Shown here one piece after another: positions 17,053 through 58,838 of a DNA stretch of 64,000 nt. The stretch is from a virus, in IMG/VR virus record IMGVR_UViG_3300037222_000084, positions 1 through 64,000 of that record. One strand, written 5' to 3'. The translations under genes were made by a program, and so were the position numbers. Position 1 is the stretch's first letter, and each line of letters begins with the position of its first letter. The notes beneath the pieces were generated by a model. It had not been told where the DNA came from, made no database searches, and worked only from the letters and a program-made list of their open reading frames with translations.

Positions 17053-17224
17053 AGGACTGCAAATTCTGGCCACATACGACGAGTGTGATGTGCAGGCGGA
17101 CCATGACATTATCTTTGCTGGGCCAGAGAACCACAGAGATGTTGACGATCATGATGCCCACGAATTGGAGCAGCTTGGTTGGTATGTGTTGGCTAGCTAC
17201 CATTGCTGGGCGTTCAACGTATGA
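17027..17224 (+). CDS. Hypothetical protein, 65 aa
   Basis: The ATG at 17027 follows TTGGAGAT. Rich in Asp and His (ENHRDVDDHDAHELEQLGW). Possible metal binding is an inference from composition. Confidence 0.6.
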   Translation: MNRTEALIKGLQILATYDECDVQADHDIIFAGPENHRDVDDHDAHELEQLGWYVLASYHCWAFNV

Positions 17225-17547
17225 GCATCAAGATCGCATTGGACTGCAACATAGGCAAGAAACGTAAGGCAGAGCTAATAGATCTAGGCTACGATGTGGT
17301 GGTTGTCGCCGAAGACGGTGAGGCCGACGTATTGTGGGTTCACAGGGCGTTCTCAGGTGGAGCAAGGTTCGTAGTCAGCAATGACCTTGATGTCCCTAAG
17401 ATATTGGAAAGAGAAGGTTATCCCATGGTGTGGGTTAACTATCCGAACGACAATGCATATTTTAAGGATTGGCTTGTACAATACATAGATCAGATGGTAC
17501 GCTTTAAGTTGAAGATTTTTCAAAAGATTATTGAGGAGTCAAAATGA
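17221..17547 (+). CDS. PIN-like (DUF5615-type) protein
   Basis: 108 aa. The order KIALDCNIGK, LIDLGYDVVVV, ADVLWVHRAF and FVVSNDLDVPKILE resembles the small DUF5615/Mut7-C PIN-like group, in which Asp residues coordinate metal for ribonuclease activity. Candidate acidic residues are D8 and those in SNDLD. No antitoxin-like partner is obvious. The match is moderate. Confidence 0.45.
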   Translation: MSIKIALDCNIGKKRKAELIDLGYDVVVVAEDGEADVLWVHRAFSGGARFVVSNDLDVPKILEREGYPMVWVNYPNDNAYFKDWLVQYIDQMVRFKLKIFQKIIEESK

Positions 17548-17732
17548 GATTCGTCGTACTGGCTATTGTTTGCGTCCTGCTTTACATCTTGCTTTTGGCT
17601 TCGCATGATCCCGTGGACTATCATCAGCCAGAGCCAGGTAAGAATGAGCATAAGTCGGGGAAAATTACGGATATGTCACCAAAAGAAGTTGACAAATTGA
17701 TTAACGAATTTCTAAAACCGGAGGCAAAATGA
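17544..17732 (+). CDS. Small membrane-anchored protein
   Basis: 62 aa. A single N-terminal helix (FVVLAIVCVLLYILLLA) precedes a charged tail of about 40 aa. ATGA overlap. Confidence 0.6.
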   Translation: MRFVVLAIVCVLLYILLLASHDPVDYHQPEPGKNEHKSGKITDMSPKEVDKLINEFLKPEAK

Positions 17733-17986
17733 TTACCGCGAGTGAAGCTAAGAACATCAGAAAAGCTATTGACAAGCCGTATACCGTAAATCAACATTGG
17801 TCATGTTGGGTAGTAGCAAAGATGTGCGGTGGCAAGGTGACACGCGATTACGCTAAATTTTTTGGACAGAGCCACAAGGCTAGATGGGATGGGCTATCTA
17901 GCCGCATTGACCGTTCTACAGAGGAACAAAACATGCAGAGAGAGCTAATGCTTGAACTGTTTGCCCACACAAGAGGCAAGTTATGA
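17729..17986 (+). CDS. Hypothetical protein, 85 aa
   Basis: ATGA overlap, helical, no family recognised. Confidence 0.6.
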   Translation: MITASEAKNIRKAIDKPYTVNQHWSCWVVAKMCGGKVTRDYAKFFGQSHKARWDGLSSRIDRSTEEQNMQRELMLELFAHTRGKL

Positions 17987-33047: not shown

Positions 33048-35207
33048 TTAGCTTGCTGCCGATTGTTGAACTTGCGAGATGTTAATGCTGATCGGGATGA
33101 AGTAGATCGCAGTTGCAAGTTTGATTTCGACACTAACATCCATTTCTGGTGCCAGAATGGTGATTTTACCGTTCTTCCAGCCAAGTGGAGCGTCATCGCT
33201 AGCTGCGATAAGCTTCAGTTTCTTGTAACCTTCCATCTTTTGAGCCAAGTAGCTCAAACCAGTCGCAGCGTCTACATCAGCCAAAGACTGACCGACGAAA
33301 GCGGCTTGGAAGCTTGCAGCAAGGTCAAGAGCCAGAATGTCCGAGCAGTAAACCGCTTGGATGCTGTTGTACACGAAATTGGTGTCAAAACCGTAAGTAG
33401 TTTGATCGCTAACCCACAGACTTCCTGCGGTCGAAGCGGTCAAGATCAACATACCAGAAGACAGCGCGTCTTCAACGTCACCAGGACTTCCCGAATCAAA
33501 TCCGGTAGGATCTGTGTAGGAAATAATGTTAGCCAACTTGTTACAGATAGACTTATAGAATCCACCGGCTTGCATACCAGCTGCGATTGTAGCCGTATAC
33601 CAGGGTTGGAACTTAGTGATAACACCAACCGAGTTGACTTCTGTCGATCCTTGGAAAGCCAAGGAACAACGATAGCTGGCGAGACCCAGAGCCGCAGCTT
33701 TGCAATTCGCATACGTGTCTTGCATAGACAATACGCAGATGCGGTTGCGTTTGAGCTTAACAGTGCTGTACGCGATGCAATGGTTCTTGACCAATGCGTT
33801 GGTAGCTGCGATAGTGTAGGTAGAGCCAGGATCGGTCAAACCAGCAGTAATGTCCTTCGATGCATCTTGCGAGAACAAAGGAACGATGATGTTTACTTGA
33901 ACACCTGCAACTTGTTGCAGAGCATTCACGATGTCGATGGCCAGAGTTGGTCCTCTTGCTCCGCCAGACAGGAATGCCTGACCAGCCATAGGAAGTGGCA
34001 GACCTGCTGCGACAGCAGCGTTGAAAGCTAATGCAGACGAAGTGCCCAAAACTGATTGAAAAGTGTTAGCAGCATCTTTGATGCGTCCAGGCATTGCGCT
34101 TGCAGCAGTAGAAGCGATACCTACAGCGGTAACGGCATCCAGTGCAGCGGTAGACTGTTGTTGAGCAGAAGGCGCTGCCTGAGCAGTGTAGCCTGGCTGA
34201 GCATTCAGATAAGCGGCCAAAATACCGATGGTAGCATAGTGAGTAAGATCTACACTCAACGCTGCACCGATTCCACCAGCGACAGTTGTCGTCAGCATAC
34301 CAGTAGTCTGGTTGATTGTAATAGTTGCAGTCGTACCCTGATACCCAATATTGAGAGCGATATCTGGAACAACGTTAAGAGTCTCGTTTACGCCAGCAGA
34401 AGGATTGTTGATCTGGACTTCAACCTGTGCTTCATCAGAAGAAGCAGTCAGAGCAGCAACCAAACCAAGAGCGGCCAAGTCACCAGGAGTAGAGTCGATC
34501 AATTCTAATGCTTGTCCGTAACCATTGGCAAATGGAGTAGCGTCAACCACAGTCAACTGAATGCTAGTCGTTGGAGCAGCTGGATTAGCAGATGCTACGA
34601 TAGTTGCCGGTAACAGGCCGTTAAGCTCAGCTACAAGGTGAGGAACAGTGTCGTGCTGTGTAGGAGTCGCGCTAAGAGTGATAACCGTAGCAGCACCGCC
34701 GTTTAAGCGGAAGCTGAAAGACTGACCATTGAGCGGAGCGCCGAATGCAGGAATTGGAGAACCAAGAACGTTGGGAGCAACTTCTGCTTGAAGAGTGCTG
34801 ATTTGATAAGAATAACCGTTTCCAGCAACTCCAGAATTCTGGAATACCAAACTACCGTATCCACCAGCGATAGCAGCAGATGCCTGAGCGCTCGTGTTAG
34901 TTTTAACGATATAGATAAGATTTGCAGATCCTTTGATGTTTGTATCGTTAGAAGGAGCGGTCAGCGCGTCGAAAGCATCTACGATTGGTCCACTCGTATA
35001 GATGTTTTGAACCTTGGCCAGTTGATCTGGAGTAAAAGTGTTGTTTTTCAACGCGACTTGCTGATAGCTAGGACCGCCATCGGCTTCACCCATGATTACG
35101 ATAATGCCGGATTGACCTAAACCTACGGGTTGCGATTGCACCGTGATGTTAGGATATGCTCCAGGAATATTTGTATTTAATAAACTTGTAACTACTCGTA
35201 GAGACAT
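33048..35207 (-). CDS. Tail sheath protein
   Basis: 719 aa after AAGGAGAGC. The N-terminus PGAYPNITVQSQPVGLG, the repeated beta-rich inserted domains in the middle and the C-terminal half with Rossmann-like strands (VQVNIIVPLFS, ALSSGMLILT, VSVEIKLATAIYFIPISI) match contractile tail sheath proteins. Length is near that of T4 gp18 (about 660). This marks the phage as a myovirus. Confidence 0.85.
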   Translation of the reverse strand: MSLRVVTSLLNTNIPGAYPNITVQSQPVGLGQSGIIVIMGEADGGPSYQQVALKNNTFTPDQLAKVQNIYTSGPIVDAFDALTAPSNDTNIKGSANLIYIVKTNTSAQASAAIAGGYGSLVFQNSGVAGNGYSYQISTLQAEVAPNVLGSPIPAFGAPLNGQSFSFRLNGGAATVITLSATPTQHDTVPHLVAELNGLLPATIVASANPAAPTTSIQLTVVDATPFANGYGQALELIDSTPGDLAALGLVAALTASSDEAQVEVQINNPSAGVNETLNVVPDIALNIGYQGTTATITINQTTGMLTTTVAGGIGAALSVDLTHYATIGILAAYLNAQPGYTAQAAPSAQQQSTAALDAVTAVGIASTAASAMPGRIKDAANTFQSVLGTSSALAFNAAVAAGLPLPMAGQAFLSGGARGPTLAIDIVNALQQVAGVQVNIIVPLFSQDASKDITAGLTDPGSTYTIAATNALVKNHCIAYSTVKLKRNRICVLSMQDTYANCKAAALGLASYRCSLAFQGSTEVNSVGVITKFQPWYTATIAAGMQAGGFYKSICNKLANIISYTDPTGFDSGSPGDVEDALSSGMLILTASTAGSLWVSDQTTYGFDTNFVYNSIQAVYCSDILALDLAASFQAAFVGQSLADVDAATGLSYLAQKMEGYKKLKLIAASDDAPLGWKNGKITILAPEMDVSVEIKLATAIYFIPISINISQVQQSAAS

Positions 35208-38452: not shown

Positions 38453-40450
38453 CTATCGCCCCTGAAGCTTTGGGTCGGCACCACTATCTGGATGGGCAGG
38501 ATACAAATTGTTGTAGTCTGGATTTCCTCCAGCTGCTTCAGTCTGAGCTTGCGGATCGTTGGTTTGATCTTCTGGCATTCCACCAGCAGGTTGTCCTTCT
38601 AGGACGCCTTCTTCAGGAGATAAAATGTTTGGAGATTCTTCTACTACGCCAGACGGCTGAGCAGCTTGGTCTTGGTCTAACCCAAGAAGCTTGGCCATTT
38701 CTATCATCGCTTTAAGCATAGCGATAGAAGACGCGTATAATTGAGGTGCTTCTAATTTAGCACGCTCAAGTATCATCTTACAGCCTTTGAATCCTTCCAA
38801 AGCTTCGCCAACCATAGCAACAACTTTTTCTCGTTTGATGCTGTCGGCATGACTGTCCAACCCTTGTTGCAGCACAGACGTAACATCTGGAGCACCATCT
38901 GGTTGTTCGCCAAGTCCCATATCAGTGGGAGTATTCTGGCTATAGCTTTCTGGACGGCTAACGTTGCCTTCCATGTTAGTACCGCCAGGCAGGTCTGCGT
39001 CGTCAGCTTGACCTTCAGCGCGTAATGGAACTTGGTCAGCTCCAAGTGCGTCGATTTCATTTGTAATGCTTTCTATAGAATCGCTATTTTCTGGAGTACT
39101 GGTAGTTCCAACAGGAGGAGCAAACGGTTCTTGATATTCTTGAGCAGCAGGCCCGCCTTGTGAGTTTTCAAGAATGATGTTCTGATTGGATTTTGAATCA
39201 GTAGGTGCGGCCAATTTCGAGGGTTGCGAAGAAATAGCGGCAGGCTTGTCCATTCCTGGACGAGCAAGATCCTGACCGGCATAGTTCTGGCTATCTTGAG
39301 TGGTAGGCAGTAATTCAGTAGAGGGATCGTTTGGACTTATGTTTTGATCGTCTCCGCCCATAGACTGAGCAGCTACTTGACAATAAGGACAATCCTGTTC
39401 GTGACCTTCAGCATTAGGATCATGCGAGCCCATTTCCTGGCAATAAGGACAATCGTCAGTGTGACCTTCAGCATTAGGATCGTGATTCATTACTGCGCAA
39501 TAAGGACAATCATCGGCATGTCCTTCGGCATTAGGATCGTGCATTTGTACACAATAAGGACAGCTTTCGTCTTGAATGCCCTGAGCACTCAATTCTTGAC
39601 AATAAGGACAGTCGTGCTGTTCAGGAGCGGGCGCGGCCTCAACGGTAACATCTTCGTCTTTAGTTAGATTCGGTTTTTGTTGTTTCAGAGCGTGCATGGT
39701 ATCATGATGGCGAGACATAGCCGTAGCTTTGTCACCAGCACGGGCATTTAGCCCAGCAGATGAAGCGCCAAGCAATTTTTTACTATGAGTAGATTGATCT
39801 TTGTGATGATCGCTAGTAAAACCGGATAAACTGTCGTGCGTGCCCTTAGCTCTTGTTCCTGGAACCTTTTCGCCAGGTTTATCCATGTGCTGCGGCATCT
39901 TATGTTGATCTGGTCTAGGAGATGCCTTAGCCAGTTCGTCTTTAGTGATTGATTTGTCTTTGCCGTCCATAACCGTATCCTGTCCTTCAGGCCGCAAATA
40001 AGCGTCACCCTGTTTCTTTTCTTGTTCAGAAGCTGTCCCGTCTTCTAGTTTCAATTGAACTTGCTGAATTTCCTGTTCAATCCTGGGATCGTAGATGACT
40101 ACTTGGTTCTTACCTCTGAATTTTGCCACTATTAGAGACTTGCCTGCCTCAGATAAAGTTTTACCTATACCTACAGACATAGTAAGCCTAGTAGCAAAAT
40201 GATAATCCGTTCTCAACTGTTCAATATGATCTAGCGCTTCATGAGGTAAATGGAAGGTCCCTTCGTCACCGCCGCCAGATATAATTCCGCCGTTGTGCTC
40301 CTGAGCCCATTTTTTGACTATCTCGTGGCCAAGATTTATTCTTTCAGAGACTTCGCTCAGGGCAGCTGGATCATTGGACAATATAGCACGACCAACAAGC
40401 CTTCCAGCATTGTCACCGTCGTATGCTAATATCCACTGAAAATTATCCAC
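38453..40450 (-). CDS. GGDEF/mCpol-like palm protein with CPYC repeats
   Basis: 665 aa with a GTG start after AGAGGGAAGC. Residues 5-122 form a palm-like nucleotidyl cyclase/polymerase fold: YDGDNAGR (10-17), SGGGDEG (58-64), TMSVGIG (90-96) and AKFRGKNQVVIYDP (109-122). Both metal-ligand motifs are intact. The spacing resembles the minimal CRISPR polymerase/GGDEF superfamily. Residues about 277-360 carry five CPYC knuckles, three preceded by HDPNAEGH. The rest is disordered, Gln/Asp/Pro-rich, with a late helix (about 540-590). It sits between neck and capsid-side genes, so the product is probably in the virion or its assembly. Activity is inferred. Confidence 0.7.
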   Translation of the reverse strand: MDNFQWILAYDGDNAGRLVGRAILSNDPAALSEVSERINLGHEIVKKWAQEHNGGIISGGGDEGTFHLPHEALDHIEQLRTDYHFATRLTMSVGIGKTLSEAGKSLIVAKFRGKNQVVIYDPRIEQEIQQVQLKLEDGTASEQEKKQGDAYLRPEGQDTVMDGKDKSITKDELAKASPRPDQHKMPQHMDKPGEKVPGTRAKGTHDSLSGFTSDHHKDQSTHSKKLLGASSAGLNARAGDKATAMSRHHDTMHALKQQKPNLTKDEDVTVEAAPAPEQHDCPYCQELSAQGIQDESCPYCVQMHDPNAEGHADDCPYCAVMNHDPNAEGHTDDCPYCQEMGSHDPNAEGHEQDCPYCQVAAQSMGGDDQNISPNDPSTELLPTTQDSQNYAGQDLARPGMDKPAAISSQPSKLAAPTDSKSNQNIILENSQGGPAAQEYQEPFAPPVGTTSTPENSDSIESITNEIDALGADQVPLRAEGQADDADLPGGTNMEGNVSRPESYSQNTPTDMGLGEQPDGAPDVTSVLQQGLDSHADSIKREKVVAMVGEALEGFKGCKMILERAKLEAPQLYASSIAMLKAMIEMAKLLGLDQDQAAQPSGVVEESPNILSPEEGVLEGQPAGGMPEDQTNDPQAQTEAAGGNPDYNNLYPAHPDSGADPKLQGR

Positions 40451-42976: not shown

Positions 42977-44041
42977 TTATTTTTCCTTGTCATAGGCATC
43001 TTTGATTTTTTTAACATGCCAATGTTCGTCTATGTTCTTTTTTTCTTTCTGAGCACGGTATGTACCCTTTACACCTTCAAGCCATGCGTACCCGATTTTG
43101 TTTGGATTTTGGCCAAAATGGTGTTCTAATCGAGCCAAGTGTTTCTGCGCTACAGTGTCTTCTAATCCAGGGTTGTCGTGCATGTACCTACGCATATCGT
43201 CACCGCGAAGCGCCATGCCCTTAGCATATTTGGCTTTTAGGTCCGTGTTCATGTGGATAGTATCGCGTATAGTGGAAGGCATTAGGGCGTACTTTCCATA
43301 TGCGCTCTCGCCTGTGTGCATTCCACCAGCTGGCTTATGGTTGGTCATCTTGCCGTTTTGACTTTCTACGGTTGCGATAGTATTGAGCATGCGCTGACTG
43401 CTATACGAAGGCTGATGCTGTTGAATACTGGCCGGTTCTCTAGGAGGCGAAGCATCTTTGATTGTAGGGCTAGACTGCATAGCGCCCATTACGCCAATTG
43501 CTGCGGCAACGTGTTTGATGCCTTTGTCTAATTTTTCAGATTTTTCAAACGTGTGAACAGGGTTATTTGCGCCGTGTTCAAGAGTCAGAGGACCAAACTC
43601 GATATCGTCGGCGGTTACGCCGTTTTCTTTAAGGTCATCGTAGAGCACCTTGTCGATGGTTACATGGGTCATGAAATTTTTGTAAACATTACCTACGTGT
43701 CCGTAGTGATCGTAAAGAGCCTTGTATTTTGGAGGCAAACCTTCTATCTTGAGCATGTAGTAGTCTAGCTTAGACACTTCCGCCGTAAAGATGATTGGTT
43801 TGAACGTCAAATCCTTAGGATCTGGAGAGCAAATATCATGCTCCTTGACGTACTCTTTCATTTCATCTAAATCAAATTCTTTGGGATTACCAAATATTTT
43901 GAGAGACATGTGCAGAGGAATATCGTCAACAAGGGTAGCGCGACCTTTGATTTTTACGCAGAACAGTACGTCACAGCCTTTTTTGGCTTGTTCCTTATAA
44001 CTGCTGTGTACTCCGACGCCACGCTTCTCTGCCGCGCCCAT
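42977..44041 (-). CDS. 2H phosphoesterase-lytic transglycosylase fusion
   Basis: 354 aa. Residues 25-165 resemble the 2H phosphoesterase fold, with H44-M-S46 in IPLHMSLKIF and H126-V-T128 in FMTHVTID as the paired HxS/T motifs. A linker with FEKSEKLDKG follows. Residues 215-350 look like a lytic transglycosylase/lysozyme domain, with E226 in ATVESQNG as the probable catalytic acid and ESAYGKYALMPSTI after it. The lysozyme part should open peptidoglycan at entry. The 2H part could cleave 2',3'-cyclic or 2'-5' linked nucleotides. Both assignments are by motif. Confidence 0.65.
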   Translation of the reverse strand: MGAAEKRGVGVHSSYKEQAKKGCDVLFCVKIKGRATLVDDIPLHMSLKIFGNPKEFDLDEMKEYVKEHDICSPDPKDLTFKPIIFTAEVSKLDYYMLKIEGLPPKYKALYDHYGHVGNVYKNFMTHVTIDKVLYDDLKENGVTADDIEFGPLTLEHGANNPVHTFEKSEKLDKGIKHVAAAIGVMGAMQSSPTIKDASPPREPASIQQHQPSYSSQRMLNTIATVESQNGKMTNHKPAGGMHTGESAYGKYALMPSTIRDTIHMNTDLKAKYAKGMALRGDDMRRYMHDNPGLEDTVAQKHLARLEHHFGQNPNKIGYAWLEGVKGTYRAQKEKKNIDEHWHVKKIKDAYDKEK

Positions 44042-45898: not shown

Positions 45899-47782
45899 TT
45901 AGCTAGTAATTACGTCGTCATCCAGCGTAACTGCGGTCTGGGCGTATAATGCGCCATGGACAGTTGCAGTTGTTTGAACTGCAATGTTCGTTTGGCCCAA
46001 GATGACGCCTTCGAAAACTGAGCTAACTCCAAGAGTTACAGCGCCACTCACTTGCCAGAAGATGTTCTGTGGCAGCAATCCGCCAGCCAAAGTTATGTGT
46101 ACAGAAGTGCTAAGGCCTAAAGTGCCAGCTACCTGCATGATATACACGTCGCTTGGTCCACCGTTAAGGGTGAGCGCGGTTGGGATAGTAACACCAGTAG
46201 TCCATTTGTACAGACCAGGGGTAAGCGACAATCCGCCAAGGTTTCCGCCACCAAGATTTGTGTGGTCAGGGCTAGTACGTCCAGCCGCATCAGTATACGC
46301 TGCTTGCATATCGCTAACAGCCGTAGTCAGATTGGATGGAGTAGGTGCCGTGTAATCTGCTGCGAAGATATGGCCAGTAACGTTTGGAGCAGTAGAGAAT
46401 GTTCCGCTACCATCCATAGTTAAAGTAAATCCGGTGATCGCTGTTGCAGCGATTGGGCTGACTGCCATTTGGCCAGTGATTGCTGAACCAGAGGTATCGC
46501 TGATACCAGACTCAGACAAGATTCTGTAGTTTCCAGCGGTAGCCAGATTTACAGCGGCGGGACTGTTGCCAATGACATAAGCTGCGCTTGCGATTGCAGA
46601 ATTTGTGTCACCAGCGTGGACTGCCAATGCTTTGAGAGTTTCGCTAGAAGCTACAGACACAGGGCCTGAGTACAGAGTGCTTCCAGTGGTAGGAGTCGAA
46701 CCGTCAGTAGTGTAGTAAATGGTCGATCCAGCTGTAACCGTAGAAATCGTAACCGATTGTATTCCAAGATATGATCCAGCGACTGGCGACATTGTTGGAG
46801 TTGCAACCGTAATTCCACCAGAAATAACATATGCAACGCTAGAAACGTTCGAGTTCAAGAAACCAGATGCAACCGAGATAGCTTTAACGGTTTCGCTAGA
46901 GCTTACGGAAATTGGTCCCGTATATAGGGTGCTTGCCGTGGTAGGAGTCGATCCATTAGTAGTGTAATAAATAGCGGCACCTACGGTAAGCGAAGAAAGG
47001 CTAACCGTTTGTGAGCTAGAATAAGTTCCAGCTGGAACTGAAGCGGCTGGAGCAGCTGCTTGATTAAGTACTGCGGTAGCTACAGTCGTAACGACTGCGC
47101 CTAACACGGTAGCTGTTAAACCAACAGTATCAGCTGCAATAGCGGCTTGCGTATCAGCAGCGATAGTCGCAGCAGAGTCGCCTGAATTAATAGTGACTTC
47201 GACGCTTACTTGGCCAGGTAGAGTGGGATCTGTGTTTGATCCACCAGTAACATTGTACCAAACTACGTAAGTGTTTGCGTTACCAGCATTGTAAAGAAGA
47301 AAAGATGCGCCAGGACCAGTTGAAGGAAAAAGGCTACCGGCAGGCAAAGTAGACTGTACTTGTTGCCATCCGGTGTTTCCATACGTAGAAACATTCAGAG
47401 AAAAACCAGCAGGCATAGACTGATTCTTTGGCTTGTTAGTGAGTTTGATAGGATTCGGAACAAAAGGAATAAGGTTTCCGATATTACGAGCAGCAAGAGC
47501 GGAAATTCCACCTGCTACGTTGGCTATGAATTCAGCCGCTAAAAGAGCGTTGGAAAAACCGTCTACCATTACTCTAATATCGTGTACGGAAAGGGCTTGT
47601 GTTCCAAGCATAGCTGCCTGGATGTTATCTGCAACTTTTTCATCGCCCATAGCAATGACCAATCGTTTCATGGTATAATGCGACAGTATGGAGCCATTAA
47701 CGACGGCAAGGGCCAATTCGTTGCCAGCGATCTTACTAGTCAGCATGTCTACGAGATCGGCGGTTGTCTTTGTGGTTAGCAT
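45899..47782 (-). CDS. Virion protein with ice-binding-like domain
   Basis: 627 aa after AAAGGAG. Residues 1-110 are a helical anchor-like region. Two chitobiase/beta-hexosaminidase C-terminal-type repeats follow (about 246-320 and 330-405), each with IYYTT(N/D)GSTPTT and TLY(T/S)GP. From about 411 to the end runs a DUF3494 (ice-binding protein-like) beta-helix: NLATAGNYRILSESGIS, MAVSPIAATAITGF, the ADYTAPTPSNLTTAVSDMQ segment, NLGGLSLTPGLYKW and NIFWQVSGAVTLG. Probably an exposed virion protein; ice or polysaccharide binding is inferred. Confidence 0.8.
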   Translation of the reverse strand: MLTTKTTADLVDMLTSKIAGNELALAVVNGSILSHYTMKRLVIAMGDEKVADNIQAAMLGTQALSVHDIRVMVDGFSNALLAAEFIANVAGGISALAARNIGNLIPFVPNPIKLTNKPKNQSMPAGFSLNVSTYGNTGWQQVQSTLPAGSLFPSTGPGASFLLYNAGNANTYVVWYNVTGGSNTDPTLPGQVSVEVTINSGDSAATIAADTQAAIAADTVGLTATVLGAVVTTVATAVLNQAAAPAASVPAGTYSSSQTVSLSSLTVGAAIYYTTNGSTPTTASTLYTGPISVSSSETVKAISVASGFLNSNVSSVAYVISGGITVATPTMSPVAGSYLGIQSVTISTVTAGSTIYYTTDGSTPTTGSTLYSGPVSVASSETLKALAVHAGDTNSAIASAAYVIGNSPAAVNLATAGNYRILSESGISDTSGSAITGQMAVSPIAATAITGFTLTMDGSGTFSTAPNVTGHIFAADYTAPTPSNLTTAVSDMQAAYTDAAGRTSPDHTNLGGGNLGGLSLTPGLYKWTTGVTIPTALTLNGGPSDVYIMQVAGTLGLSTSVHITLAGGLLPQNIFWQVSGAVTLGVSSVFEGVILGQTNIAVQTTATVHGALYAQTAVTLDDDVITS

Positions 47783-47839: not shown

Positions 47840-48535
47840 TTACTCTTCTGCTAAATAGCAGATGCTGCCATCTTGCACCACTTCTCTGGTAGCTCGAATA
47901 GGACGCTTGCTGGCTGGGTAATACATTCGATCTAAGCACGAAGCGTTAACAAAAGTGGTAGGACCAACGTATTCGATCCCACGGGCTTCGTGAATATGAC
48001 CAAAAACATGTAATTTCACCTGTGTTTTCAATATCTTATCCATCAAATCTTGGCAACCAGCACGCTCTTTTGGAGTACCGTCAACATAGGAAACAACGTC
48101 TAAGAATCCAGCTGGAGGACCATGCGTAATGAGCAATTCGGTATCATCTGGAATCATGTCCCAGTGACGTTTAATATCGGGTCCACGATCACGGTTAAAG
48201 GCCCAGCTATGAAACCAAGGTTGGACTGGCGAGCCCCAAATCTTGACGCCTTCTAGGTCTACCCCAGAATCGTTCAAAAGAATAATGTTGCGATCTTGGC
48301 ATGCTTCAGCGAGCAACGCAGGAGTGCGCTCAAAACCCCAATCGTGGTTTCCAGGGACTAGTATGGTATAGTCATAGTCCTGTTTTGCATACCAGTCTAA
48401 AAATGTAAGAATTTCAACTTCACTACCACGAAGACTGACATCTCCAGAGTGAATCAAAATATTGCCACCGTCACACTTGAATCTTTCGTGCTGATTATGA
48501 GTATCTGATAGTAGATCTATGATTAATTTTTCCAT
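47840..48535 (-). CDS. Calcineurin-like metallophosphoesterase
   Basis: 231 aa. All dinuclear metal motifs are visible: LLSDTHNQH (D10, H12), HSGDVS, VPGNHDW, LLITHGPP and HVFGHIHEARG. The length and the GSPVQPW insertion resemble the MPPED-like phosphodiesterase group. Substrate unknown; possibly a nucleotide or nucleic acid. Located between the capsid gene and the ice-binding-like gene. Confidence 0.9.
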   Translation of the reverse strand: MEKLIIDLLSDTHNQHERFKCDGGNILIHSGDVSLRGSEVEILTFLDWYAKQDYDYTILVPGNHDWGFERTPALLAEACQDRNIILLNDSGVDLEGVKIWGSPVQPWFHSWAFNRDRGPDIKRHWDMIPDDTELLITHGPPAGFLDVVSYVDGTPKERAGCQDLMDKILKTQVKLHVFGHIHEARGIEYVGPTTFVNASCLDRMYYPASKRPIRATREVVQDGSICYLAEE

Positions 48536-48615: not shown

Positions 48616-50016
48616 TTATCCGCCGCCAGGAATCAATTGGCCAGTGATGTTCTCAAGCAACACGTTTTTGCGTGGCTGATACATTGCCAAAGACAAGAAG
48701 CGGAAGTGAGCTTCGGGCAAGCTCAGGTCGTTTACTGCAAGTTTCAGCTTGCTGTAAGGAGCCAATTGAGCGAATCCCATGGTGTTAGCTTGCACCAAGA
48801 AACCAGTGATCGAACCAGGCTGACGATTGCCCAAGTCTGTGAAGACAGGGTTTCCGTTGTTCTGTGCGATACGACCGATAAACTTTGCAGAAGCAGCTGA
48901 ACCATTAGCAGCTGAACGATACACGTTGTAGTACTGAGCATTAGCAGCAGCAGTGATAGTCACTGTCAACTTGTCACCAGCAGCAGCAGCAACACCAGCA
49001 GAAGCGGCAGATGGGAAGCTTTCGCCGCGCATCGAAACCGACGTTACGTAGTATTGATACGTACCAGCAGCTAACAACGAACCAGCAGCACCGGCATCAG
49101 CAACAGCCGGAGCAGCGGGAGCGGCTGGCGAACCAGTCCGTGCGCGTGCAGGGCGTGTTTTGCCAGACAAGAAGCGCGAAGCCTCAAGGCTAACAATTGC
49201 AGACGAGGTCCACTGAGTGCGCAAATGAGCACCAGTAGCTTCTTGAGCCGAACCTGCTAACATAATGCGCTCTTTTGCGTGCGCGATTTTGTTATAAGCC
49301 GACAAGCTGATAGGATCTAAGATCAAACGATCAGCAGCGCCCATGTTCATTGCAGAACGAACAGAGCTATCTTCGATAATACTTTGGGTAAGAGTTCCAC
49401 CGACTGAAAGAACTACAGTTTGGTCTGAGCCAAATTCTGCGAACATCAAGTCCTGTGTGTTGGACTGAGCGTCCGACTGACGAACTTGTTGGTCAACACC
49501 AATCATGTTCGGAACTTTTGCTACGGCGAGAGGATTGCCGTCAAAAACGCCTACGTTAGAGAAATCTGACTGTCCACGGAACGAGTCAAACTCAATGTCA
49601 CCGGCCAATTTCATGGCAGCGTCAGCAGCAGCGCGATCTTCAGCTTTTACACCGTCGAATGCACCGATCATGTTGGACGCGACAGTCACCCGACGAGTCG
49701 TGCTGTAGTATGCCATGGGCACAACTGCACGAACGTAGTTAGACGTGTCTTCTTCACCCACGCCACCTTCGAATTGGGCGGACCCACCGAAAATACCGTA
49801 GTCAAGTTGACGGTTGAATTGATGCAATTGGCTCTTAACATCTTTCGATGGGAGCATTTTTTGCAATTTGATATGGGAATCGTCGAATGTGACGTTCTGC
49901 ATCACGGGCGACATATCCTCGATCATTAAAGCTGCGCCCTGAACTAAGCGATCTGGAGATGCGAGGTACGAACCTGCTTCCAAAGCTTTCATAAGGGACT
50001 GAAGTTGTTCAATCAT
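48616..50016 (-). CDS. Major capsid protein
   Basis: 466 aa after AAAGGAGAAC. The N-terminal region (KALEAGSYLASPDRLVQGAA, then MIEDMSPVMQNVTFDDSHI) and the helix/strand pattern with RLILDPISLSAYNK and PYSKLKLAVNDLSLPEAHFRF fit HK97-fold capsid proteins of large myoviruses. Residues about 290-400 form an inserted Ig/FnIII-like beta domain (GTYQYYVTSVSMRGESFPS, YYNVYRSA). Position next to the scaffold-like and protease-like genes supports the call. Confidence 0.75.
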   Translation of the reverse strand: MIEQLQSLMKALEAGSYLASPDRLVQGAALMIEDMSPVMQNVTFDDSHIKLQKMLPSKDVKSQLHQFNRQLDYGIFGGSAQFEGGVGEEDTSNYVRAVVPMAYYSTTRRVTVASNMIGAFDGVKAEDRAAADAAMKLAGDIEFDSFRGQSDFSNVGVFDGNPLAVAKVPNMIGVDQQVRQSDAQSNTQDLMFAEFGSDQTVVLSVGGTLTQSIIEDSSVRSAMNMGAADRLILDPISLSAYNKIAHAKERIMLAGSAQEATGAHLRTQWTSSAIVSLEASRFLSGKTRPARARTGSPAAPAAPAVADAGAAGSLLAAGTYQYYVTSVSMRGESFPSAASAGVAAAAGDKLTVTITAAANAQYYNVYRSAANGSAASAKFIGRIAQNNGNPVFTDLGNRQPGSITGFLVQANTMGFAQLAPYSKLKLAVNDLSLPEAHFRFLSLAMYQPRKNVLLENITGQLIPGGG

Positions 50017-51914: not shown

Positions 51915-53900
51915 TTGGGCACATATGTAGATGGAATAGGCGCAAGCCAAAATATAGACAGTAGCGGCGAGATCGTTGACATCTCAGGATTGGACATTTC
52001 CAGCCTAGAAGTCGATGGTTCATTGAACTGGGAACACAAAAAAGACCTGCCAGATCAACTAGTTGGCAAGATTCTCAAGGCCAAAAAGATCTTCTCTGAT
52101 AAAGACTGTGAAGACGACCGACAGAAATATTTCTGGGAAAAGTGCAAAGTTCCGTATCTATATGTATTAGGCGAACTGTTCGACGATTACACCGATTCTG
52201 CCCGCACCGTTGCTGGTTTGTTTCGATATGACCTAGACCATCGTGGCAAAAACGCTAAGGATGTCGTGGGTTTCTCTGTCGAAGGTGCCACTATACACAA
52301 AAACGGCAATACCATCACTCGCTCCATAGCACGCAAAATTACCTGTACGTCGCTACCCTGCAATAAACAGGCTGTGGCTGAAATGGTCCCTAAAGAGGGT
52401 AAAAAGCCAAAAGACAACTTGAGTAATATTTTCAAAACTGAGAGCTACGTCGAAATCGAGGTAGTGAACCTTCCTAAGCAGCCAAATCTGTGGGAAATGT
52501 TAAAAACTGAGTCTTTGATGAAAAGGGCAAAAGCCATGTTCGCCAAACCAGTCAAGAAAGACGAAGCTGCCCTGACTTCTGGTGCCGGAACTTCCATGGC
52601 ATTAGGCGGCGGCGCTCCATCGTCTCCATCGCTGTCGTGTTCAGAACCAGATATGGCTAAGGCTTTGAAGGTAGCAAGTCCACTTGGCACGCATTTAGGG
52701 AATACTACTAGCGGTAAACCAGTACACAGCCACGCGCAAGTTGGTCAAACGGGTTTTTCAGCAGAAGAACATGGCGAAGCCGCACAACTTCATCAAAAGG
52801 CTGGTGCCGCAAGCCCATCAATGTTTCAGCATCACAAAGGCAAAGCTGATCTACACAACTCTGCCGCCGTTAGAATGAAAGACGTTGCTATTAAGAGACA
52901 GGCAGCTGCTAAGAAAAATACTATGGTTGCTGGACCTAGTGGCGGCGCTCCAAATAAATTGTTCAATCCGAGAACCAGTGGTACTATAAATTATAAGAAA
53001 TCGGAAACGTTGCAACCTGGCGAAAAAGGCAATAGCGTAACGGCTAACCAAAAACAGGAACGTGATCGTAGGGCTCAAGAGGCATATCCTAATAGCAGTA
53101 AGCGTAATTTTGACAAACACGTAGTCAACCATAGCGAGTCGAATCCTTCAAACCAAAAACGTGCGAGCATTCCAAATCAGCAAACTGCTCCTTCTGCTAA
53201 AGAAGCCGGTGGACCAAGCAATAACATGCTGCACAACAATATTTTGGCACCAAAACGCACTATGCATAAAGCCGCAGGCGGTGCTGGCGGCGGACTTGGT
53301 GGTGGCGGTATTTCTGCTGGAGTATCTAGCATGACTACTGTTCAAGCTCCAACGGTTCCTAATCCTAAGCCAAAGACCGTTATGCCAGTTGGTAAAATCA
53401 CGAAAGCACTCGAAGCCGGTTCTAGTCTGACTTCGCCTGCTAATCTATCAGGAGGCGCTGCTTTGGGTAAAGAAAGTCTTGAAAAGTGTAACTGTAATAT
53501 GGCTAAATGCGCTTCTTGTGGTCCAAAATTGGCCAAGGGCGGACAGTTCTCTGGTAACGTTCCCAAAGATGCTAAGATTAAAGATTTGCAGCATAAAATT
53601 GATAGTGGCACGTATAAGCCTGACGCTAAAAAGATAGGCGAGAGCATGTTGAATCATCCTAGCAAACCCCTAAAAGGCACTAAGGTGCAAAAGTCTGAAA
53701 TGCTGCAACGCGCAGAGTCAGAATATGCTTCATGGGAAAAACGTGAAGAATTTGAAAGTTTTATGAAGTCTCGTATGCCGCATATGACCAAGGGCGAAAT
53801 CGTCGCATTTGGCCAGGCTATGATTTTGAACAAATCGTTTAAGATGGAAAAGTCCTTGAATGGTCTTCTTGGCCTGTTGAAAGAAGAACCTAAAAAATAA
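51915..53900 (+). CDS. Prohead protease-scaffold fusion
   Basis: 661 aa with a TTG start after GGAG. Residues 1-160 look like a capsid maturation protease: IDSSGEIVDISGLDI, NWEHK (H41), GKILKAKKIF, YLYVLGELFDD, GFSVEG (S121) and KITCTSLPCNKQAV. About 500 residues of disordered, Lys/Ser/Gly/Ala-rich chain follow, with KSE motifs and a CNCNMAKCASC cluster. Near residue 497 the segment KALEAGSSLTSP nearly repeats the capsid protein N-terminus. Protease assignment is by motif order. Confidence 0.6.
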   Translation: MGTYVDGIGASQNIDSSGEIVDISGLDISSLEVDGSLNWEHKKDLPDQLVGKILKAKKIFSDKDCEDDRQKYFWEKCKVPYLYVLGELFDDYTDSARTVAGLFRYDLDHRGKNAKDVVGFSVEGATIHKNGNTITRSIARKITCTSLPCNKQAVAEMVPKEGKKPKDNLSNIFKTESYVEIEVVNLPKQPNLWEMLKTESLMKRAKAMFAKPVKKDEAALTSGAGTSMALGGGAPSSPSLSCSEPDMAKALKVASPLGTHLGNTTSGKPVHSHAQVGQTGFSAEEHGEAAQLHQKAGAASPSMFQHHKGKADLHNSAAVRMKDVAIKRQAAAKKNTMVAGPSGGAPNKLFNPRTSGTINYKKSETLQPGEKGNSVTANQKQERDRRAQEAYPNSSKRNFDKHVVNHSESNPSNQKRASIPNQQTAPSAKEAGGPSNNMLHNNILAPKRTMHKAAGGAGGGLGGGGISAGVSSMTTVQAPTVPNPKPKTVMPVGKITKALEAGSSLTSPANLSGGAALGKESLEKCNCNMAKCASCGPKLAKGGQFSGNVPKDAKIKDLQHKIDSGTYKPDAKKIGESMLNHPSKPLKGTKVQKSEMLQRAESEYASWEKREEFESFMKSRMPHMTKGEIVAFGQAMILNKSFKMEKSLNGLLGLLKEEPKK

Positions 53901-55479: not shown

Positions 55480-56271
55480 ATGATCTATTTAAACGGTAAT
55501 CCCGTTAATACCACTCTCTTCCCTGACAACACCAGTCAAGTATGGAAGATACCCACCCTCGAAATTCCAGACACCAATTGGGTCCACGTAAAATGGGACT
55601 TTTCGCATGAAGGCGAGTTTATCCAATTGGCCCAGCTTAAACAATTGCTCGATAAACGCGGTTTTCGTGCCGCATTGCGTCTTAGCTACCTGCCCTATGG
55701 CCGTCAAGACAAAGAAGTTTCAAACGACGCCACTTTCGCGCTTCGCACTTTCAACAAATACATAGACTTTATGGATTGGGACGAAATCATCGTAATGGAC
55801 CCGCATAGCTCCGTAATCATGGACTATGTTCGTAATGTTCGGGCCGTATATCCTATCCAAGAACTCGAAAAGACACTAGCGCATACGGTTTCTACTTTGG
55901 TCTGCTATCCCGACAAAGGCGCACTCGAAAAGTACACTAAAGTGTATCGCAGCATCGTTGAAGACGAATTCATCTATGGTGAAAAGGTCCGCGATCAATC
56001 TACTGGAAATATTACAAGTTATCAATTAATCGGCAACCCCAAAGGCCACAGTGTCCTCATTGTTGATGACATTTGCGACGGCGGTGCCACATTCAAGCTT
56101 CTTGCCAAAGACCTATTGGCAGCAGGAGCTACGGAGGTAAATCTTTTTGTAACCCATGGAATTTTCTCACGAGGTCTGAGAACGCTCCAAGAATCAGGAA
56201 TTAAACGCATATTTACTCAAGATGGCGAAGCTAGTACCCATCAAGATCAAATCACTTATAGGAGATTATAA
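55480..56271 (+). CDS. PRPP synthetase-like (Prs or Adps)
   Basis: 263 aa from ATG 55480 after CCAGGAGATAC. YLPYGRQDKEV (about 69-79), MDPHS and the PRPP-binding loop VLIVDDICDGGATF (about 192-205) identify the ribose-phosphate pyrophosphokinase family. It is some 50 aa shorter than host Prs. Partnered with the NAMPT-like gene, it would supply PRPP for nicotinamide salvage. In the described NARP1 phage pathway the homologue instead pyrophosphorylates ADP-ribose. Sequence alone does not tell which. Confidence 0.88.
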   Translation: MIYLNGNPVNTTLFPDNTSQVWKIPTLEIPDTNWVHVKWDFSHEGEFIQLAQLKQLLDKRGFRAALRLSYLPYGRQDKEVSNDATFALRTFNKYIDFMDWDEIIVMDPHSSVIMDYVRNVRAVYPIQELEKTLAHTVSTLVCYPDKGALEKYTKVYRSIVEDEFIYGEKVRDQSTGNITSYQLIGNPKGHSVLIVDDICDGGATFKLLAKDLLAAGATEVNLFVTHGIFSRGLRTLQESGIKRIFTQDGEASTHQDQITYRRL

Positions 56272-56272
56272 C

Positions 56273-57763
56273 GTGAAAAATTTAATGAAAAGCCTACCGA
56301 CTACAGTCCTCTGCGATTTCTATAAAATTGCACACCGTGCAATGTACCCAACTGGAACAGAAGTGGTTTATTCCACCTGGACACCGCGAGCCAGTCGCAT
56401 GAAAGGCATAGATCAAGTTGTTGCCTTCGGCATGCAAGCCTTCATCAAGACCTACTTGATTGATTTCTTTGACACAAACTTCTTTGGTCGAGAAAAGTCC
56501 GTTGTAGTCGCTGAATACAAACGATTGATTTCAGCCACTCTTGGAGACCCCAATCCAGAGACCAAACACATCGAAGACCTTCACGATCTTGGCTTTTTGC
56601 CACTTTCAGTTAAAGCTCTCCCAGAAGGAACTCTTGTTCCGCTGCGCGTACCGATGATGACCCTCCAAAACACAGACAAACGGTTTTTCTGGTTAACAAA
56701 CTTCGTAGAATCTTTGGCTTCTTGCGAGTTGTGGCAACCCACTACCAGCGCGACTATTGCGCGTGAGTACCGCAAGATCATGGACAAAGCAGCAATGGAG
56801 ACGGTTGGCGACACTGGATTCGTAATGTTCCAAGGTCACGATTTCTCTATGCGCGGCATGTCTTCTCTGCAATCCGCAGTTTCTTCTGGCATGGGCCACC
56901 TGCTGTCATTCGTTGGCACAGACACTATTCCAGCAATTGTTGGAGCAGAAGTGCTCTACGGCGCAGATGTGACGAAGGAACTCGTTGGAACATCCATTCC
57001 AGCCACAGAACACTCAATCCAATGCACTTACGGCGATGACCTGAAATACTTGGAGCGCATGCTCTCAGTGGTTCACCCAAATGGCTTCGTTTCCATCGTT
57101 TCTGATGGTTATGACTTTTGGGAAGTTATTCGCAGCGTGCTCCCTGCTCTCAAATCCAAAATCATGGCTCGTAGCGGTGGACCCGTTGGAGACCGTGTGG
57201 TTATTCGCCCTGACTCTGGCGACCCTGTGCTGATAGTTTGCGGCGATCCAGATGCAACTCCTGGAAGCCTTGAGTATAAAGGCGCTGTAGAGGCTCTATG
57301 GGACATTTTCGGCGGGACCGAATCCTCTAAAGGATACAAAGTCCTCGATTCCCACATTGGCCTGATCTATGGTGACGCTATTACTCTCCGTCGTTGTGAA
57401 GAAATTTCCGAACGGCTGAAAGCCAAAGGTTTCGCCTCGATCAACTGCGTGTACGGCATTGGTAGCTACACCTATCAGTACAACACCCGTGACACCTTCG
57501 GATTTGCTCTTAAGAGCACATTAGCCGTGATAAACGGCGATGAAAAGCAGATTTTCAAAGATCCGAAAACTGATAATGGCATCAAGAAGTCACAGAAAGG
57601 CCGTGTGGTCGTTCTTAAGGATGGCAATTCACTCAAGTTCGTCGATGGCCTTGGACTCAACGATGTCGTAGAAGGCGACCTGTTGACAGAAGTGTTCCGC
57701 GACGGTAAACTGTTGGTGGATCAAAAATTCTCCGAAATCAGAGCACGGCTCGCAGGACAGTAA
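56273..57763 (+). CDS. nadV: Nicotinamide phosphoribosyltransferase-like (NadV or Namat)
   Basis: 496 aa with a GTG start after TAGGAG; a downstream ATG at 56285 is an alternative. CDFYKIAHRAMYP at the N-terminus, FQGHDFSMRGMSS, GTSIPATEHS, RPDSGDPV (about 311) and YGIGSYTYQ are NAMPT signatures, and the length fits. It converts nicotinamide plus PRPP to NMN, or in NARP1 joins nicotinamide to ADP-ribose pyrophosphate to give NAD+. It starts 1 nt after the Prs-like stop. Confidence 0.93.
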   Translation: MKNLMKSLPTTVLCDFYKIAHRAMYPTGTEVVYSTWTPRASRMKGIDQVVAFGMQAFIKTYLIDFFDTNFFGREKSVVVAEYKRLISATLGDPNPETKHIEDLHDLGFLPLSVKALPEGTLVPLRVPMMTLQNTDKRFFWLTNFVESLASCELWQPTTSATIAREYRKIMDKAAMETVGDTGFVMFQGHDFSMRGMSSLQSAVSSGMGHLLSFVGTDTIPAIVGAEVLYGADVTKELVGTSIPATEHSIQCTYGDDLKYLERMLSVVHPNGFVSIVSDGYDFWEVIRSVLPALKSKIMARSGGPVGDRVVIRPDSGDPVLIVCGDPDATPGSLEYKGAVEALWDIFGGTESSKGYKVLDSHIGLIYGDAITLRRCEEISERLKAKGFASINCVYGIGSYTYQYNTRDTFGFALKSTLAVINGDEKQIFKDPKTDNGIKKSQKGRVVVLKDGNSLKFVDGLGLNDVVEGDLLTEVFRDGKLLVDQKFSEIRARLAGQ

Positions 57764-58251
57764 TGAAAACCGATCAATTCGCATTTTTCTATGGAGGAGC
57801 CTTAAGTCAATGGGCTCCTTCCCCATTCACTCTGGACGAAGTGGAGTATTCTACTGCTGAACAGTATATGATGGCTATGAAGGCTGATTATTTTAATGAT
57901 CAAGATACCAAAGCCAAAATAATGGCCACTGATAGTCCTTCTGAGCAGAAGTCACTAGGCAGGATGGTTAAGAATTTCAATGCAGAAGCTTGGAATGCTG
58001 TTTCTAGGGGATTCGTGTACAAGGCGAACATTGCCAAATTCACTCAAAACGACTGGTGTATGAAGGAACTGGAACGAACCGGAGACCTAGAAATCGTTGA
58101 GGCTAGTCCGTATGACCGAATCTGGGGCATTGGCCTTGGAACTAGCGACAAACGAGCACTTGACAAGACCCAGTGGCTTGGTACAAACTGGTTAGGTGAG
58201 ACTTTGATGAAAGTACGGAAGGACCTACGTGAGCAAAACAGTCGAGTGTGA
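57763..58251 (+). CDS. NADAR (YbiA-like) family protein
   Basis: 162 aa, TAATG overlap with the NAMPT-like gene. FAFFYGGALSQWAPSPFTL, EYSTAEQYMMAMKADYF, KFTQN and PYDRIWGIGLG are the order and motifs of the YbiA/NADAR fold. Members remove N-glycosidic groups from riboflavin intermediates, and several reverse ADP-ribosylation of guanine in DNA. Its place among NAD/ADP-ribose genes favours the ADP-ribose role. Confidence 0.88.
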   Translation: MKTDQFAFFYGGALSQWAPSPFTLDEVEYSTAEQYMMAMKADYFNDQDTKAKIMATDSPSEQKSLGRMVKNFNAEAWNAVSRGFVYKANIAKFTQNDWCMKELERTGDLEIVEASPYDRIWGIGLGTSDKRALDKTQWLGTNWLGETLMKVRKDLREQNSRV

Positions 58252-58423
58252 TTGTATGATGTGCCAAAAACCACTAGAAAACTACGATCCACAGATGTGC
58301 TGTGGCGGGTTCGATTGCGGGTGTATGGGCCTTCCTACTAACCCTCCTATTTGTTCTGAAGAATGCTGGGATGCGCTTATTAAAAGGAATAGTGATGGGC
58401 AAAGTAACGACAATAAAGGGTAA
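58229..58423 (+). CDS. Small Cys-rich protein
   Basis: 64 aa with a GTG start inside the NADAR 3' end. It has ten Cys residues, including CDCMMC and CCGGFDCGC, so one or two zinc sites are likely. It overlaps both neighbours and belongs to the NAD/ADP-ribose operon by position. Confidence 0.5.
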   Translation: MSKTVECDCMMCQKPLENYDPQMCCGGFDCGCMGLPTNPPICSEECWDALIKRNSDGQSNDNKG

Positions 58424-58838
58424 TCTCTTTGATGCTCCAGAAGGCTCCATAATCATTCATGCGTGCAATACTAAGGGCGTATGGGGATCTGGCATAGCCA
58501 GGGAGTTCGCCAAACGGTTCCCTAAGGCCCGTGACATTTACGCTCAAACTTGTCAAGAACAAGGACCGTCTCTTATTGGGAAATGTCTTCTAATTCCAGC
58601 TGGGAGCCACGTTATTGGCTGCTTATTCACTTCAAAAAACTATGGACAATTCGTAGATTCTCCTGCTAAGATATTAACAGCAACCAGATTGGCCATTGCT
58701 CATTTGATTCTTCAAAATGAGAGCAAGTTGCCCATGCATATGTGCAAGATAAATGCTGGATTGTTCAACGTTCCTTGGCCTAAAACCAAGGCAATATTGA
58801 AAGACGCCGATGTTGAATTTGTAGTTTACGATTTTTAG
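58395..58838 (+). CDS. Macro domain protein
   Basis: 147 aa. ATG 58395 is chosen with AAAAGGA upstream; the frame extends back to 58302 only through the previous gene. GKVTTIKGNLFDAPEG and HACNTKGVWGSGIA (22-35) form the ADP-ribose pocket, and INAGLFNVPW the second loop. Closest in style to the Poa1/ALC1-like macro group that hydrolyses ADP-ribose 1''-phosphate or removes ADP-ribose from proteins or DNA. Confidence 0.88.
   Translation: MGKVTTIKGNLFDAPEGSIIIHACNTKGVWGSGIAREFAKRFPKARDIYAQTCQEQGPSLIGKCLLIPAGSHVIGCLFTSKNYGQFVDSPAKILTATRLAIAHLILQNESKLPMHMCKINAGLFNVPWPKTKAILKDADVEFVVYDF

Follow-up and report, generated by a model that had tools for sequence, protein, structure and literature searches.

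A predicted 2H phosphoesterase–lytic transglycosylase fusion and a linked mCpol palm protein in the virion block of an uncultured phage group

Acb1-type phage 2H enzymes cut the cyclic oligonucleotides of CBASS immunity. Panoptes, reported in 2025, is sprung by the same enzymes that phages use for removing immune nucleotides: cells die when 2'3'-c-di-AMP is lost, and this mCpol product is destroyed by T4 Acb1 (PMC12657230), while deletion of acb1 from T4 was without effect on OptSE defence (PMC12657218). In OptS, the D57A substitution abolishes synthesis and S30 is the base-selecting residue (PMC12657230). Iyer et al. 2017 (PMC5512222) described 2H domains in virion-packaged phage polyvalent proteins, predicted to degrade immune nucleotides, and noted lysozyme and GGDEF cyclase domains in the same protein class.

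The locus described here lies in a stretch of 64,000 nucleotides (the window) from an IMG/VR virus record of 86.9 kb. The initial annotation had placed at 42977-44041 a 2H phosphoesterase joined to a cell-wall-opening domain, with a palm protein about 2.5 kb away, so that one virion block would hold both a predicted maker and a predicted breaker of unusual nucleotides. The genes concerned are as follows.

42977..44041, minus strand: 2H phosphoesterase–lytic transglycosylase fusion gene (P0001), 354 aa, from open reading frame and translation
38453..40450, minus strand: mCpol-tail virion-block protein (P0002), 665 aa, GTG start, syntenic in relatives with the tail always kept
48616..50016, minus strand: major head protein (phrog_752, E 1e-45; 52% identical to the major capsid protein of Mx1)
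33048..35207, minus strand: tail sheath (phrog_279, E 1e-22)
51915..53900, plus strand: head maturation protease (phrog_1028, E 2e-6), candidate processor of KSE sites

The P0001 reading frame occupies exactly 42977-44041 including the stop codon, with an ATG start. Together with P0002 it is placed, by sequence matches of the neighbouring genes, within a virion block that contains the predicted head maturation protease, major head protein and tail sheath, and the gene order of this block is conserved across the phage group, whose genomes are about 150-177 kb. Myxococcus phage Mx1 is the only cultured cousin that we found. The gap between the two genes is 2.5 kb, as annotated, and the gene context, with an mCpol of intact catalytic residues, agrees with the proposed coexistence of a predicted maker and a predicted breaker.

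Searched alone, P0001 matched no Pfam model, found no relative by tblastn in a set of 50,697 phage records, and gave only noise in a single-sequence phmmer search of the PDB; PHROGs returned a weak virion structural match, confined to the C-terminus. Its relatives were collected from viral contigs (L numbers below) in three scans. Some of them (L011:3580-5184, L015:5490-6965) carry an extra N-terminal domain of about 150-190 aa (GPHF[LI]FSAENP...) without a Pfam match, and in the closest relative (L002:1057-1677) a GIY-YIG-like, homing endonuclease-type ORF is inserted directly after the fusion gene. The AlphaFold2 model of the whole protein has a mean pLDDT of 87.8; residues 10-167 and 212-352 are both mostly above 90, and the linker is below 50. 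Together with structure comparison, this model bears out both halves of the annotated fusion, which is encoded on the minus strand. Its parts are listed below.

43541..44014, minus strand: 2H phosphoesterase domain, residues 10-167 (AlphaFold2 model, VIA-align, Foldseek, profile)
43910..43912, minus strand: predicted catalytic His44 of the first HxS motif (HMS, 44-46), invariant in 36/36
43664..43666, minus strand: predicted catalytic His126 of the second HxT motif (HVT, 126-128), invariant in 36/36
43535..43543, minus strand: KSE (167-169) at the exit of the 2H domain, where [KA]SE density points to a candidate cleavage site of the head protease
43418..43537, minus strand: predicted disordered linker, residues 169-208 (pLDDT <50 over 169-198 and 204-208)
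42986..43408, minus strand: SLT-type lytic transglycosylase domain, residues 212-352, with candidate catalytic Glu226 (VIA-align; PF01464 in relatives)

His44 and His126 are the only invariant histidines across 36 different 2H-domain sequences, which share 21-95% identity with P0001. The 2H domain modelled alone reaches a pLDDT of 90.4 and a pTM of 0.85. In VIA-align, ranks 1-44 are all 2H enzymes (Z 4.1-8.8) and non-2H rows do not exceed 4.0. In Foldseek, the penguinpox cGAMP PDE and the rotavirus VP3 PDE stand at the top with probability 1.00, followed by LigT, Acb1, the BCSR5 phage PDE, AKAP18 and Usb1. On the strength of the predicted structure, the N-terminal fold is certainly 2H, and the invariance of the histidines together with the fold rules out a chance occurrence of the HMS and HVT motifs, which the initial annotation had read correctly.

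The same rankings single out no one 2H subfamily. The VIA-align Z scores are 8.8 for VP3, 8.7 for CPDase, 8.5 for YjcG, 8.3 for LigT, 8.1 for PH0099, 7.1 for the pox PDE and 6.6 for Acb1. The profile of the 2H domain finds PH0099, an archaeal 2H protein resembling 2'-5' RNA ligases, at E 0.0055 in an alignment that takes in both HxT motifs, and hhalign of the 2H family against eight Acb1 sequences gives a probability of 79 with only the second motif aligned. The modelled domain is thus assigned to no subfamily and is not especially Acb1-like. In the comparison with Acb1, LigT and CPDase that the initial annotation had called for, the 2H relationship stands, and likeness to Acb1 in particular is not specifically supported: by hhalign, Foldseek or VIA-align, Acb1 belongs to a large set of 2H relatives of which others are closer. 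Membership in the Acb1 family is doubtful: the 50,697 phage records gave no sequence match, for a second subfamily as well, and the family-to-family hhalign was only moderate.

The 2H domain could be a LigT/ThpR-like enzyme of RNA-end processing. Where host defence nucleases have cut tRNAs, it would resolve the resulting 2',3'-cyclic phosphate ends and work together with the phage RNA ligase. In VIA-align, LigT, YjcG and the 2'-5' ligase-like proteins of archaea score among the highest (Z 8.1-8.5), level with VP3 and CPDase, and PH0099 is the best sequence profile match. The RNA ligase PF09414 occurs in 10/16 records, including the window's own at 63605-64051, and PF09511 in 5/16; L013 and L099 are without both the 2H domain and these ligases. 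However, the 2H gene lies in the virion block and not beside the ligase, KptA was found in 0/16 records, the near-complete 2H carriers L039 and L092 are without either ligase family, and the Mx1 annotation lists an RNA ligase although this phage has no 2H domain. Moreover, Iyer et al. 2017 (PMC5512222) never observed the packaged phage 2H type together with RNA ligases. We regard RNA-end processing as somewhat unlikely.

At 55480-58838 on the plus strand, ribose-phosphate pyrophosphokinase-like, NAMPT (PF04095), NADAR (PF08719) and Macro genes stand in a row, and this cluster looks like one for NAD+ reconstitution or ADP-ribose counter-defence. A CPDase-like enzyme hydrolysing ADP-ribose 1'',2''-cyclic phosphate, or another NAD-derived cyclic phosphate, as part of NAD counter-defence would be in keeping with these genes (among them the PRPP synthetase-like one) and with the CPDase score. 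The NAD genes are nevertheless outside the virion block, and KptA, the maker of Appr>p, is absent from the 16 records, so that we consider this activity highly improbable.

The C-terminal domain aligns with Slt Cj0843 at a VIA-align Z of 12.1, and PF01464 matches 9/33 relatives (best E 9e-6). Glu226 lies within ESQNGK, consistent with an SLT fold with the catalytic Glu motif; the cell-wall-opening partner proposed for the 2H domain is therefore well founded. It is lost or truncated in 13/33 2H carriers, with 8 changes on the tree. The association of 2H with mCpol is thus more stable than that of 2H with the domain fused to it. The retention pattern also bears on whether the 2H domain could have only a structural or binding function within a virion lytic protein and catalyse nothing in the cell. 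Such a role would suit its virion-block location and its fusion to a lytic transglycosylase, but both catalytic histidines are invariant in 36 divergent sequences while the transglycosylase is so often lost or truncated, and we judge it very unlikely.

The palm protein P0002 contains the following elements.

40091..40429, minus strand: mCpol palm domain, residues 8-120 (PF18182, E 9.2e-13; also found by DNA search)
40412..40420, minus strand: mCpol DxD (Asp11, Asp13), invariant columns D10 and D12 of palm alignment A5
40265..40273, minus strand: mCpol GGD (Gly60-Gly61-Asp62), Asp62 aligning with OptS Asp57
38456..39640, minus strand: CPYC repeats and conserved C-terminal tail, kept in the palm-less phages L009, L013 and L017

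P0002 scores 49 bits against PF18182, for which the curated cut-off is 26.4, and a profile built from 46 phage palms hits 9nwn and 9mnr, structures of Panoptes OptS/mCpol, with E 1.6e-19. The invariant palm columns in alignment A5 include D11, D13, S35, G61 and D62 (P0002 numbering), of which D62 corresponds to OptS D57 and S35 to the base-selecting S30. On these alignments the palm is a true mCpol domain with its predicted catalytic residues kept. By analogy with OptS, its product would be 2'3'-c-di-AMP. A palm-only scan found nothing outside the phage group of P0002.

The position occupied by P0001 holds other proteins in 2H-less relatives. In Mx1 it is taken by a 1479-aa protein, WNM70333.1 (L043:2400-6839), with GNAT, ART-PolyVal and NUDIX domains and a lytic transglycosylase profile match, and other relatives carry GNAT–lytic transglycosylase proteins (L084, L086) or other cargo. 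Since the slot holds other host-acting cargo where 2H is absent, it looks like a cargo or effector slot, and P0001 itself, a virion-block gene with effector domains, fits the polyvalent type.

Several other genes of such blocks were observed. Mx1, whose mCpol homologue has a degenerate palm with the catalytic residues lost, encodes an intact GGDEF 'nucleotide cyclase' between its prohead protease and major capsid genes (17173-17904; L121:674-1405). Here a block of this kind holds another cyclase, independent of mCpol, in one case only: GGDEF was found in 1/20 records searched, Mx1 alone, which rules it out as the usual alternative maker. Within the window's own block, the minus strand encodes an ice-binding-like domain (PF11999, E 6e-66) with chitobiase-C and Fn3-associated repeats at 45899-47782, possibly a particle decoration protein, and at 47840-48535 a calcineurin-like phosphoesterase that matches the PADLOC candidate PDC-S10 (E 1e-76).

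The linker of P0001 offers a clue to processing. Across 37 relatives, [KA]SE occurs 28 times in 1755 aa of post-2H linkers and 3 times in 5512 aa of 2H domains, and the density of KSE/ASE over the 48 residues that follow the 2H domain is about 30 times that within the domain. Most relatives have KSE or ASE after the 2H domain, as expected for a head-protease site, and 12/13 KSE motifs of the window fall inside the virion block, five of those in the putative scaffold. From this density and the encoded head protease, we infer that the linker is probably cut at KSE during head maturation. The N-terminus of the major head protein (KALEAGSYLASPDRLVQGAAL, 48616-50016, minus strand) is similar to an internal segment of the head maturation protease (KALEAGSSLTSPANLSGGAAL, 51915-53900, plus strand), possibly a shared processing or targeting signal.

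To describe how the two enzymes are distributed, we used 46 distinct contigs in which both slots were readable. Both 2H and mCpol are present in 32 of them, 2H without mCpol in 1, mCpol without 2H in 8, and neither in 5, two of which (Mx1 and L099) retain a degenerate palm without catalytic residues. The two genes thus do co-occur in relatives. Whole-record searches found no 2H in L013, L099 or Mx1 and no mCpol in L013 or L090. Seven of the eight mCpol-only records are fragments, and hence the 2H gene could lie elsewhere in those genomes. The association has an uncorrected Fisher p of 0.005; on the tree, there are no more than 3 and 4 changes of label, and the independent pairs, with 1-2 contrasts agreeing and 0 opposed, are not significant. 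With so few changes and contrasts, the association is suggestive, not established. The initial idea that the genes are conserved together therefore holds in part: the linkage is tight in one clade (mCpol in 32/33 2H carriers, and one clade, L009/L013/L017, without both), and it is weakened by the few independent contrasts, L090 and the eight mCpol-only contigs. An obligate pair is ruled out, as L090/L091 have an intact 2H domain without mCpol and eight contigs show the reverse.

The same counts apply to a matched pair, in which the linked mCpol would make a timed signal of the phage and the 2H enzyme would specifically erase it. The high joint occurrence, the clade that lacks both (with mCpol absent genome-wide in L013) and the destruction of 2'3'-c-di-AMP by Acb1, itself a 2H enzyme (PMC12657230), are in its favor. 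Against these stand the non-significant tree-corrected contrasts and the contigs with one gene only, and we find a matched pair quite unlikely.

Our leading interpretation, held tentatively and at somewhat less than even confidence, is that the product of P0001 is a polyvalent-effector type of protein, made late, carried as cargo in the virion and acting early to degrade nucleotide immune signals, and that the linked mCpol is a second, separate cargo. The SLT domain would help to open peptidoglycan at entry. The head maturation protease would probably cut at KSE (167-169), freeing the N-terminal 2H enzyme, which may enter with the DNA and hydrolyse (cyclic) oligonucleotide immune signals before they act, like Acb1 but pre-loaded. 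The separately encoded mCpol protein would be a Cas10-lineage cyclase making a cyclic dinucleotide (2'3'-c-di-AMP in studied relatives), whose product might plausibly hold back Panoptes-type guards as other signals are being removed by the 2H enzyme. Packaging, processing, delivery, the substrates and the reason for a maker and a breaker travelling together are all conjectural parts of this proposal, and its enzymatic side is burdened by a 2H domain no closer to Acb1 or cGAMP PDEs (Z 6.6 and 7.1) than to LigT, CPDase and YjcG (8.3-8.7).

Since Panoptes is sprung by nucleotide loss, a phage that strips signals would gain by supplying a decoy. In a stricter version, the particle would deliver a two-enzyme kit with the DNA, the 2H enzyme stripping CBASS-type signals and the mCpol supplying a decoy so that Panoptes-type guards stay silent, an anti-anti-anti-defence that we consider unlikely in this full form. 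The presence of a Panoptes-lineage cyclase beside a predicted nucleotide-cutting 2H enzyme in a virion block makes phage escape from Panoptes directly testable, and the large family, with dozens of genomes, is available for biochemistry. If our leading interpretation is true, immune-nucleotide enzymes would act from the particle and not after expression, and the particles of uncultured bacterial viruses may carry tools against bacterial immunity.

In comparison with known systems, P0001 shares with Acb1 (T4 gp57B, FBB1 Acb1) the 2H fold and an HxT/HxT-type tetrad, with the hhalign probability given above. However, the VIA-align Z is only 6.5-6.6, the phage records gave no sequence match, and the Acb1 base-stacking residues are not recognisable by sequence in the P0001 domain; Acb1 is also a small stand-alone protein encoded beside the tail fibre chaperone gene, unlike the fusion described here. 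The poxvirus cGAMP PDE and the rotavirus VP3 2'-5' PDE are the best Foldseek matches, and VP3 the best by VIA-align, but these are proteins of animal viruses with 11-20% identity to the P0001 2H domain. The transglycosylase domain has the fold of Slt Cj0843 and Slt70 (Z up to 12.1) and the ES..G motif; unlike them, it is a small C-terminal domain, often truncated in relatives and without a Pfam match of its own.

The phage palm has the same mCpol domain, DxD, and D57 and S30 equivalents (D62, S35) as OptS/mCpol of Panoptes (PMC12657218, PMC12657230), but it reads GGD[EQ] where OptS has AADG and continues into CPYC repeats and a virion-block tail. Panoptes mCpol adjoins a 2TM-beta effector, whereas none was noticed beside the phage mCpol among neighbours that were read and partly scanned, without a dedicated model. 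The papers that we searched contain no mention of a virion-block mCpol, though this does not prove that there is none. With the polyvalent proteins of Iyer et al. 2017 (PMC5512222), P0001 has in common a phage 2H domain in a multidomain virion-block protein; such domains are described there with MuF or portal domains, and the text consulted makes no mention of an SLT fusion, a KSE linker or an mCpol linked to them. The packaged phage 2H enzyme itself was thus predicted in 2017, and what appears to be new is its fusion to an SLT domain through a KSE linker and its genetic linkage to an active-looking mCpol in a large uncultured family.
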